A stretch of 64,000 nucleotides of DNA from contig JARBTX010000008.1 in assembly GCA_029239975.1 (NCBI GenBank), positions 1 to 64,000 on the forward strand, read 5' to 3'. The stretch comes from Anaerocolumna sp. (lineage in GTDB: Bacteria; Bacillota; Clostridia; Lachnospirales; Lachnospiraceae). The notes beneath the pieces are model-generated. The model did not search any database. It was not told the origin of the DNA and saw only the letters and a program-made list of their open reading frames with translations. Of the stretch, positions 11,541 through 39,392 are shown piece after piece; position 1 is the stretch's first letter; each line of letters opens with the position of its first letter. A program made the position numbers and the translations under genes.

Positions 11541-11770
11541 TTATTCATTCACTAGGTTTTATAAGCTGCTTAATTTATTCTTTCACTAGATTTTTAAGTT
11601 ACTTCATTTATTCTTTCACTAGATTTTTAAGTTACTTCATTTATTCATTCACTAGTTTAAGCTACTAATTTACTATTTTATTCTTTCACTAGTTCCTTTA
11701 AGCTACTAATTTATTCTTTCACTTGTCTTATAAACTACTTCATTTAATCTTTCACTAGTTTTTTTAAACT
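11541..11770 (-). repeat. ~33-bp tandem repeat derived from the 3' end of hemA including its stop codon (about 7 units)
   Basis: minus strand units such as ATGAAGTAACTTAAAAATCTAGTGAAAGAATAA (x2 perfect), ATTAGTAGCTTAAAGGAACTAGTGAAAGAATAA. Confidence 0.9.
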
Positions 11771-12937
11771 ACTTAATATAATGTCAAAATCATTACTTGG
11801 TACTAAGTCTCTTAATTGATACAAGATACTTTCCAAGGGTTGTTTTTCAAATACGCTCTTTACATTTTCCATATATGGTAAAAATTCTCTAAAATTAATT
11901 AATTTTAAACAATTATCAACTTCTTCATCAATAATACTTTTTGCTGACTCTACTTCCTGTAATTTCTGTGTGTTATTATTTTCCGATAATTTTTTAAAAT
12001 AATCAATATCTATTAATTTCATATTATCTAACTTTTCTATATTTTTATCAATATCCAATGGTACCGATAGGTCAATAAGTAGACGTGGTTTATTCTCATA
12101 TATAAATTTTTTTACTTCATCGTAAGTGATTGTATAATGTGGGCTTGTTGTTGCACTTACGATAATATCAACTTCATTTATTATCTCATATCTATGTTGA
12201 TAATCTATCATCTTTACTTTAGGATAACTTATGAATTCTTCGGATATATTATGAGATCTAATAGTTCCTACAATATCAATATGTGAATTATGGTATAAAT
12301 TTTTCATTAATATGGTTCCCATTTTACCAGTCAAACCGATAATTAATACTTTTTTCTTTTTGTCTTTTTGGATAAAATTTATGATCTCATGGGAAGCTAA
12401 CGTTCCAATCGATATTGGTGTCTTTGATATCTTTGTATTAGTTTTCACCTTTTTTGCGCAGGTAATCGCTTCGCGAAAAAGTGTATTTAGTAAAAATCCA
12501 GTTGTTCCTAATTCAAATGCTAATTGGTAATTCTCTTTAACTTGACCTAAAATTTCATCTTCACCAACTAACATGGAGTCAATACCACTGGTTACTCTAA
12601 ATAGATGATGAATTGATTTTTCATCACTATAACGATTAAAATATTTTAGCATATTCTCATAATTTAAATTTTTAATAGAAACAATATATTGTATCATTTG
12701 TTCGAGAGCATTTTGGTTACCATTCATATAGATTTCAGTACGATTACAAGTTGTAATCAATACACATTCCGTAATACTTTCTAATCTAACCGCACTCTTA
12801 AGAAAATCACACTTTTCTTCTTTGGTAAATGTTAATAACTCACGTATCTCTACTGGTGCAGTTTTATGACTGATACTTAAAGTATGTATGCTCATCTTTG
12901 TTCCTCTTTCATTTATCACAAGTTTTCTTTCTTTCAC
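11744..12937 (-). CDS. hemA: glutamyl-tRNA reductase
   Basis: SHKTAPVEIRE, CVLITTCNRTEIY, GEDEILGQVKENY motifs; start probably at internal MSIHTLSISH. Confidence 0.94.
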   Translation of the reverse strand: MKERKLVINERGTKMSIHTLSISHKTAPVEIRELLTFTKEEKCDFLKSAVRLESITECVLITTCNRTEIYMNGNQNALEQMIQYIVSIKNLNYENMLKYFNRYSDEKSIHHLFRVTSGIDSMLVGEDEILGQVKENYQLAFELGTTGFLLNTLFREAITCAKKVKTNTKISKTPISIGTLASHEIINFIQKDKKKKVLIIGLTGKMGTILMKNLYHNSHIDIVGTIRSHNISEEFISYPKVKMIDYQHRYEIINEVDIIVSATTSPHYTITYDEVKKFIYENKPRLLIDLSVPLDIDKNIEKLDNMKLIDIDYFKKLSENNNTQKLQEVESAKSIIDEEVDNCLKLINFREFLPYMENVKSVFEKQPLESILYQLRDLVPSNDFDIILSSLKKLVKD

Positions 12938-13034: not shown

Positions 13035-13155
13035 GGGTTAGCATATAATTGGTTTTACCATATAATTAGTTTTAATATATAATTGGTTTTAATATATGTT
13101 TGGTTTTAATATATTTGGTTTTAATATTTATTTGGTTTTAATATATGTTTGGGCA
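13035..13155 (-). repeat. degenerate ~17-bp AT-rich tandem repeat
   Basis: minus strand CAAACATATATTAAAAC-type units, about 6-7 copies. Confidence 0.85.
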
Positions 13156-21935: not shown

Positions 21936-22029
21936 TCTCTATCTTTTTTCATAATATATCTATACTAGTTGTAATTGCATGCAATTCCTTCTTCATTCAC
22001 TTACTTAAATTATTTCTTTATATATTTTA

Positions 22030-22233
22030 TCAATCACTTCTTCTATCACTTCTTCTATCACTTCTTCAATTACTTCATCAATCACTTCTTATATCACTTC
22101 TTATATCACTTCTTCTATTACTTCATCAATCACTTCTTCTATTACTTCTACAATCACTACTTCTATTACTTCTTCAACTACTTCTTCAATTACTTATTCA
22201 ATTACTTCTTCAATTACTTCTTCAATTACTTCT
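22030..22233 (-). repeat. 12-bp tandem repeat, 17 units, beginning with the last three codons and stop of cobB
   Basis: minus strand AGAAGTAATTGA (R S N stop) and variants; 204 bp = 17 x 12 with exact period. Confidence 0.95.
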
Positions 22234-36826: not shown

Positions 36827-38698
36827 TTATTCATTCATACTATGTTTCCATTTTAATAATAAAGAAGAATTAACGATTACCACAATAGAACCTGCATTAT
36901 GAACTAATGCACCAACTACAGGATTTAATATTCCTGTGATTGCTAATATAATTGCTGCAAAATTAAGTGCCATGGAAAAAATCATATTTAATTTTATGGT
37001 TTTCATCATATGTTTTGAAAGCTGAAATAAATGTGGTAATTTCGTAATATCATCTCTTACTAATACTATGTCTGCTGCATCTACTGCGATATCACTGCCT
37101 TCGCCACCCATAGCGATACCCACAAGTGCTGTTTTAAGAGCTGGTGCATCATTAATCCCATCTCCTACCATACATACCATATCACCATTATTTTGGATTT
37201 CTTTTATCGCATTTAATTTATCTTCAGGTAAGCAATTTGCATAAATGTTGGTAATTCCGGCATTTGATGCAATATGCTCTGCAGAAAACTGATTATCTCC
37301 GGTTAATAGTACTGTCTCTACCTTGGTTTTATGTAAGGATGTTATCGTATCAGAAACATCTTCTCTTAATGTATCTGCAAGTGCAACAAACCCTTTTATT
37401 TCTTGATTTATGGCTATGTATATAATGGTGGCACCTTCATTTTGAAATTGCGTTACCATATCATTTATAAGGCTTAACAATATTTTATTATCAACCATGA
37501 ATTCTTCATTACCTGCATAGATTAACTTTCCATCTATTTGTATGGAAACTCCACGACCTGGATACATCTTAAATTCTTCTGGTTCGTTTATCGTTTCCTT
37601 AGTAGTTTCTCTATAACATTCTACAATGGCTTTTCCAAGTGGATGTTCCGAATAAATTTCAGCCGAAGCTAGATAACTATATAGCTGATTCTCTGTAAAA
37701 TTATTATCTATACTCTTAATAGCTACTACGATTGGTTTACCTTTGGTGAGTGTTCCAGTTTTATCAAAAGTTATTTTTGTTACCTTTGATAAGCGCTCTA
37801 ATGCATCACCTTCACGCACTAAAATTCCGTATTTTGATACATTTCCAATAGCAGCCATTATCGCAGTAGGCGTTGCCAGTACTAATGCACATGGACAAAA
37901 CACTACTAAAATAGTTACTGCTCGTATTATTTCACCTGTAATAATCCACGTTAGAAGTGCGGATGATAATGCGATACATACAATCCAAGTTGCCCACCTA
38001 TCTGCTATACCAACGATTTTAGCTTTACCAGCGTCCGCTGATTGTACTAGTTTAATCATTCTTTGAAGTGAGCTATCTTCACCAACTTTTTTCGCTTCCA
38101 TCAGAAAACTACCAAACTGATTCACTGTTCCACTAGATACATAGTCACCAATTGTTTTATCAACTGGTATGGATTCTCCTGTCATAACGGCTTGATTAAT
38201 GGAAGTTACACCAGATGTAATAATTCCATCAGCTGGTATGATTTCACCCGGTTTCACCCTTAGAGTATCACCGACTTTTACTTCATCTGTTGAAATAACT
38301 TTTTCTTCTCCATTACTAATGACTCTTGCAGTCTGTGGTGTTAAATGAACTAATTTTTCAATTCCAGCTCTAGCCTTTGCTACCGTTAAATCTTCTAATA
38401 AAGCTCCTAATTGCATGATAAATGCAACTTCACCAGCCGCAAAGGTTTCACCAATAAGAACTGAAGCCACCAAAGCAATTGCAACTAGTACGTCTGCTTT
38501 GATATCAAATTCTGTTACGAGCCCAATGATTGCTTCCTTAATAATAGGAAGACCACATAATATAATTGCAATCCAAGCCAAATTAAGTCCAACCGGCGCA
38601 ATATGTAATAAATTTAAGAAAAGTGCAATGCCTGATATTACTAATAGTAAAATACTTCTCTTTGTTTCATCTTGAAAAATATTTTTTACTCTTTTCAA
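36827..38698 (-). CDS. heavy-metal translocating P1B-type ATPase (CPC type, no N-terminal HMA domain)
   Basis: CPCALVLATP, DKTGTLTKG, MVGDGINDAPAL. Confidence 0.93.
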   Translation of the reverse strand: MKRVKNIFQDETKRSILLLVISGIALFLNLLHIAPVGLNLAWIAIILCGLPIIKEAIIGLVTEFDIKADVLVAIALVASVLIGETFAAGEVAFIMQLGALLEDLTVAKARAGIEKLVHLTPQTARVISNGEEKVISTDEVKVGDTLRVKPGEIIPADGIITSGVTSINQAVMTGESIPVDKTIGDYVSSGTVNQFGSFLMEAKKVGEDSSLQRMIKLVQSADAGKAKIVGIADRWATWIVCIALSSALLTWIITGEIIRAVTILVVFCPCALVLATPTAIMAAIGNVSKYGILVREGDALERLSKVTKITFDKTGTLTKGKPIVVAIKSIDNNFTENQLYSYLASAEIYSEHPLGKAIVECYRETTKETINEPEEFKMYPGRGVSIQIDGKLIYAGNEEFMVDNKILLSLINDMVTQFQNEGATIIYIAINQEIKGFVALADTLREDVSDTITSLHKTKVETVLLTGDNQFSAEHIASNAGITNIYANCLPEDKLNAIKEIQNNGDMVCMVGDGINDAPALKTALVGIAMGGEGSDIAVDAADIVLVRDDITKLPHLFQLSKHMMKTIKLNMIFSMALNFAAIILAITGILNPVVGALVHNAGSIVVIVNSSLLLKWKHSMNE

Positions 38699-38711: not shown

Positions 38712-38728
38712 CATACCCATAGGGGTAT
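38712..38728. promoter_or_regulatory. CsoR-type operator
   Basis: ATACCCATAGGGGTAT dyad. Confidence 0.7.
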
Positions 38729-38745
38729 TGGTATATTCTAAAAAT

Positions 38746-38774
38746 ATTATACCCATGGGGGTATGGATTGTCAA
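38746..38774 (-). promoter_or_regulatory. ATPase promoter with CsoR-type operator between -35 and -10
   Basis: TTGACA-atccatacccccatggg(17)-TATAAT; dyad ATACCCCCATGGGTAT in spacer. Confidence 0.8.
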
Positions 38775-38785
38775 TCGAAAAAGAA

Positions 38786-38864
38786 AAGTTGTTATACATT
38801 TTGAATAACCTATTACTTGTACCTTTTGGCAATGTAATAACATTCAAAATTTATAACAACCTTT
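38786..38864 (-). terminator. long hairpin between csoR-like gene and ATPase gene
   Basis: GTTGTTATA.ATTTTGAAT...ATTAC...GTAAT...ATTCAAAAT..TATAACAAC followed on minus by TTTTCTTTTT. Confidence 0.65.
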
Positions 38865-38970
38865 TATTAGTCTGTCTTTTCTGTTTTTATAGTATCTTCT
38901 GCAATTTCTGTTTTCTGTAAACTGTGTAATTTCTGTTTCCATGTATCTTGTATAATTTCTTTATATAGTA

Positions 38971-39246
38971 CTATGACATCCTTGAGAATTGTTCTACTGC
39001 TTTTACTAACTTTTTCATCGTTGCATCTGCATCTCCATGCTCAATACTATCTAGTACACAATGATTTAAATGACCTTCTAAAACTACCTGCCCAACCTTG
39101 TGTAGTGCTGATTTTGCAGCATTTATTTGCATTAATACATCCTCACAAGGTATATCTTCATCAACCATACGGTCAATGGCATTTAACTGACCTATTATTT
39201 TTTTCAATCTTCTATGAAGATTGTCTGCATCCATACATTGTTTCAC
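38971..39246 (-). CDS. csoR: CsoR/RcnR family metal-sensing repressor
   Basis: DUF156 fold; C-H-C pattern DIPCEDVL ... GHLNHCV. Confidence 0.88.
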   Translation of the reverse strand: MKQCMDADNLHRRLKKIIGQLNAIDRMVDEDIPCEDVLMQINAAKSALHKVGQVVLEGHLNHCVLDSIEHGDADATMKKLVKAVEQFSRMS

Positions 39247-39260
39247 TCAAAAACCTCCTT

Positions 39261-39360
39261 TATACCCTTACGAGTACATTTATACCCTTACGAGTACATT
39301 TATACCCTTACGAGTACATTTATACCCTTACGAGTACATTTATACCCTTACGGGTATAAA
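39261..39360 (-). repeat. five 20-bp tandem repeats resembling CsoR operators in the csoR 5' UTR
   Basis: TATACCCTTACGAGTACATT x4 perfect plus TATACCCTTACGGGTATAAA. Confidence 0.95.
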
Positions 39361-39363
39361 GAT

Positions 39364-39392
39364 AGAATAACAATAAAACAAATATATGTCAA
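39364..39392 (-). promoter_or_regulatory. csoR promoter
   Basis: TTGACA-N17-TATTCT immediately upstream of the repeat array. Confidence 0.7.

Follow-up and report, generated by a model that had tools for sequence, protein, structure and literature searches.

CsoR-type operators and the promoters that carry them

In Clostridia (Lacrimispora, Blautia, Christensenella and others; L014-L117), the csoR leader contains a single type 2 CsoR operator, a dyad of the form ATACC-N6-GGTAT that lies between the −10 hexamer and the Shine–Dalgarno sequence (SD). At P1B ATPase promoters, operators of this type can occur twice around one promoter, mostly 25 bp apart (19 bp in the same-genus genome G006), where they flank or overlap the −10 hexamer; two is the highest number at any such promoter among the genomes scanned here. 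CsoR/RcnR promoters with two close operators have also been described (PMC12724321). In Streptomyces lividans, the operators of csoR, copZA1 and copZA2 each consist of a TAC/GTA inverted repeat with G-tracts and are single, without a tandem array; an additional GTA/TAC motif overlaps the copZA1 operator (PMC3902906). Two tetramers of S. lividans CsoR bind one operator, and binding is lost when the TAC/GTA repeat is swapped (PMC3902906).

Here, we focus on a csoR leader in a 64,000-nucleotide stretch of DNA from Anaerocolumna sp., which was analysed as a whole and is referred to as the window. The leader shares its gene family, dyad and operator position with the other Clostridia, the repetition of one type of operator with the two-operator promoters, and the TAC/GTA repeat and G-tracts with S. 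lividans; four of its units also contain GTAC, which recalls the extra motif of copZA1. It differs from these systems in carrying five operators in tandem at 20-bp spacing, which fill the leader. Such an expansion of an otherwise ordinary control site is genuine and unusual, CsoR-family promoters usually having one or two operators.

Architecture of the csoR leader

Five head-to-tail units of 20 bp, of which four are identical, make up the array; they lie on the minus strand at window positions 39260-39360 and separate the promoter of a csoR-like gene from its ribosome-binding site. Direct reading gives four copies of TATACCCTTACGAGTACATT (39261-39340) and one of TATACCCTTACGGGTATAAA (39341-39360); Tandem Repeats Finder reports 39259-39356 with a period of 20, 4.9 copies and a 98% match, and a repeat search returns a start-to-start distance of 20 throughout. 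These results bear out the initial annotation, in which five 20-bp repeats, four of them identical, were said to fill the csoR 5′ UTR. A tandem run of four exact 20-mers far exceeds what chance would give. The repeat spans 100 bp, a length at which the number of copies could be wrong in an assembly as fragmented as this one (180 contigs; 92% completeness, 6.5% contamination). Within the whole 4.8-Mb genome, the unit pattern is matched exactly in the csoR leader alone, and near matches elsewhere include two sites at the adjoining ATPase promoter.

The csoR promoter, TTGACA-N17-TATTCT (39392-39364, minus strand), matches 10 of 12 consensus positions, with the −35 hexamer at 39387-39392 and the −10 hexamer at 39364-39369, separated by a 17-bp spacer. 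Consensus promoter matches number four, with 5.0 expected in shuffled sequence, so a match by itself is weak evidence. The promoter–operator layout is kept the same in relatives, whose TTGACA occupies the same place relative to the operator. The downstream end of the array is the SD, AGGAGG (39259-39254, minus strand), 7 nt ahead of the csoR GTG start codon at 39246; promoter and SD are thus found where they had been placed, immediately on either side of the repeats.

Unit 1, nearest the promoter (39341-39358; 22 bp with its flanks, 39339-39360), is the perfect dyad TATACCC-GTAA-GGGTATA and reads as a full CsoR-type operator that covers the predicted transcription start. Units 2 (39321-39338), 3 (39301-39318), 4 (39281-39298) and 5 (39261-39278, next to the SD) share a single sequence, TGTACTC-GTAA-GGGTATA, which is a degenerate form of the operator. 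All five keep TAC-N8-GTA and so fit the type 2 pattern, in which a TAC...GTA inverted repeat is set around G/C-tracts; both tracts (CCC/GGG) are present in unit 1 and one full tract in each of units 2–5. The 20-bp period had been taken as about two helical turns that would place all sites on one face of the DNA. At 10.5 bp per turn it amounts to ~1.9 turns, which upholds the first part of this proposal but not the second, as successive units drift by ~34 degrees each.

The repressor

The gene downstream of the array (38971-39246, minus strand, GTG start) encodes a CsoR-family repressor of 91 aa, which matches PF02583 (CsoR/RcnR, DUF156; E=1.4e-25) at 89.9 bits against a gathering score of 22.8, and the structure of CsoR 4m1p in the PDB at E=1.2e-17. 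Together with the single operator at the same spot in relatives and two like sites at the ATPase promoter, this family membership agrees with the earlier identification of the repeats as CsoR-type operators ahead of a CsoR-family gene. When aligned with 4m1p, C34, H59 and C63 make up the Cys-His-Cys ligand triad of copper-type CsoR, and all three are invariant across 84 distinct orthologues. Copper CsoRs have a second-shell Tyr preceding the first ligand Cys; this residue is not present here, where Pro33 stands ahead of that Cys. The protein also stays below the named-family cut-off for copper-sensing CsoR sensu stricto, scoring 68 bits with the RicR model against 175, which leaves copper as a candidate inducer. 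An N-terminal QCM that includes C4 is invariant in 84/84 distinct orthologues. C4 is a possible fourth ligand, which would separate this subfamily from copper CsoR. The same genome encodes two further CsoR-family paralogues (C63:2595-2828 and C54:4869-5111), 37% and 30% identical.

A single operator in relatives

Orthologous csoR leaders, 105 in all, were searched for ATACC-N6-GGTAT, a site being accepted when at least 8/10 positions matched within 80 bp of the start codon. One operator was found in 45, mostly at ~−30 to −14 from the start codon, and the TTGACA of these relatives lies at ~−64, mostly between −61 and −73. Two full, separate operators occur in none of the orthologous leaders listed, and the other csoR leaders of the same genus have one operator or none. 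In the window, TTGACA precedes the start codon by 146 bp, or by 66 bp once four 20-bp units are subtracted, and the leader that remains consists of −10 hexamer, perfect dyad and SD in the layout of the relatives. Since −146 less 80 bp gives −66, as in relatives, four extra copies were added to an ancestral one-operator leader; this comparison shows that the array is an expansion of the ancestral single operator.

The rarity of such expansions was assessed in 397 genomes of the family and 391 of the class, using patterns able to detect the array in the window. In the family, 17 other genomes have paired sites, 25 or 26 bp apart and never more than two per place, and a three-site pattern matched this genome alone among those of the class; as the patterns demand exact half-sites, they would overlook arrays of greater degeneracy, and the genomes represent a sample. 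Natural pairs are usually 25 bp apart and occur mainly at the promoter of the neighbouring metal ATPase; at most of the loci read around such pairs, an ATPase reading frame begins next to them. The 19-bp pair at the ATPase promoter of G006 indicates that near-abutting operators do occur naturally. Viral contigs searched for two units and plasmids searched with the leader returned no match, and thus give no sign of a mobile origin. A literature search for natural operator arrays of variable copy number found nothing relevant in the limited set covered.

Operator strength and autorepression

A symmetric matrix was built from 33 natural csoR-leader operators of relatives and applied to the 64-kb window. 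Unit 1 scores 20.8 bits, inside the range of the natural operators, and units 2–5 score 11.6 bits each, just under the lowest of the 33 (12.7 bits), which is the sole csoR operator of Blautia parvula and has the same degenerate half, AGTAC, as units 2–5. The initial annotation had likewise described the promoter-proximal unit as near-perfect and the other four as imperfect. About 0.9 sites scoring like units 2–5 are expected by chance in random sequence of 64 kb, so the score by itself is no proof that these units are bound. In favour of binding, units 2–5 retain every TAC and GTA position, and these show no or almost no variation in the natural operators; being copies, the four units contribute one observation. 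Units 2–5 depart at core columns 3 and 7 only, both of which vary in natural operators too.

The best explanation, whose chances we put at about even, is that the autoregulatory operator has been tandemly expanded in this lineage in a way that strengthens autorepression. The ancestral csoR leader contained one CsoR-type operator between −10 and SD, at which bound repressor would have stopped initiation until the inducer released it. The five copies would have arisen as the 20-bp unit was multiplied by replication slippage or unequal recombination, and those beyond unit 1 differ from it at two positions of one half-site. The main block to initiation would come from unit 1, which covers the start site, while units 2–5 would act as weak sites that are occupied cooperatively with the help of their neighbours, adding occupancy and a roadblock to the polymerase. 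A cooperative roadblock was also among the readings offered by the initial annotation, and it is a plausible one. Compared with a single site, the array would keep csoR expression lower and either raise the inducer level needed for derepression or make the response steeper. This model has to contend with the geometry of the array: sites of 18 bp at 20-bp spacing nearly touch, which may leave too little room for tetramers on every site.

Its main rival is near-neutral tandem expansion, a possible but distinctly tentative account in which slippage copied the operator, unit 1 alone regulates, and units 2–5 have decayed into passengers, making the 5′ UTR longer but leaving control as it was. Weak and identical units are what recent slippage would be expected to leave; the array is not conserved, with more than two tandem sites in no other family or class genome scanned and hence no second array to show selection, and many other tandem repeats lie in the window. 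Against such neutrality, the unit retains the contact positions and a half-site in use elsewhere, and what has been repeated is precisely the operator, the rest of the leader being short and conserved.

Five abutting sites in a natural row at a gene that represses itself, with a clear one-site ancestor among relatives, lend themselves to testing how autoregulation depends on the number and strength of operators. The array also suits testing whether slippage can tune a metal response. It is unlikely, in our judgement, that the array already serves this purpose, with strains differing in unit number and thereby in repressor level and in the threshold and steepness of induction, so that the array would be a heritable dial for metal tolerance.

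The leader transcript

The initial annotation had raised the possibility of an RNA-level element. In the transcript, each unit could fold into a hairpin of 7 bp closed by a GUAA loop, and five such hairpins, or one long rod, would then shield the 5′ end or impede the loading of ribosomes. The leader and early csoR together fold at −56.6 kcal/mol (z = −7.9 against shuffles), and both departures of units 2–5 become G-U pairs in the transcript. DNA dyads and tandem copies fold automatically, however, and shuffling breaks the repeats; the two G-U changes are common to all copies and count once. In the 33 natural operators, core columns 3-7 contain 11 non-pairs and zero G-U, so that RNA pairing is not kept at the asymmetries. 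As these asymmetries are all non-pairs in RNA, the symmetry of the operators is best explained by DNA binding. Nor does predicted pairing of the SD vary much when the number of extra units is changed from 0 to 4, its mean unpaired probability staying at 0.10-0.18. These observations weigh weakly against an RNA-level role, which we consider improbable.

The adjoining ATPase promoter

Downstream of csoR lies a gene for a P1B heavy-metal ATPase of 623 aa with a CPC motif (36827-38698, minus strand). The protein exceeds the cut-offs of the general, Cd and Cu subfamily models (TIGR01525, TIGR01512 and TIGR01511), and no CxxC metal-binding motif was found in it. Its promoter, TTGACA-N17-TATAAT (38746-38774, minus strand), matches the sigma-70 consensus at 12/12 positions. 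Two operators accompany it on the same strand: the first (38748-38765; 24.1 bits) lies over the −35/−10 spacer and the −10 hexamer, and the second (38712-38729; 25.2 bits), 36 bp from the first, lies between the −10 hexamer and the start codon. Because the ATPase has this two-operator promoter of its own, it would be controlled separately, and the array would mainly set the level of the repressor. A pair of operators 25 bp apart is seen at the ATPase promoter of many relatives.

The initial annotation had also listed a titration decoy that sets repressor level; in such a scheme the extra sites would bind repressor, lower the free pool and raise the basal level of the ATPase. Beyond the presence of the extra sites nothing speaks in favour of this scheme, which would add just four weak sites per chromosome. 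Those sites, moreover, belong to the leader of the repressor gene itself, so that their occupancy would act more directly by cutting repressor synthesis, and we regard titration as highly improbable.

Other repeats are found in the same region and elsewhere in the window. The csoR–ATPase intergenic region contains an inverted repeat (38784-38864) with 23-nt arms that are 91% complementary and a 35-nt loop, present in a single copy in the genome, and directly downstream of csoR (38878-38960) are ~3 imperfect 25-bp tandem repeats (TTTCTGTTT). Further away, a 12-bp unit is repeated in 20.9 copies at 21982-22233, and tandem arrays at 11541-11777 (33-bp x7) and 13043-13146 (17-bp x6) suggest a repeat-rich region.
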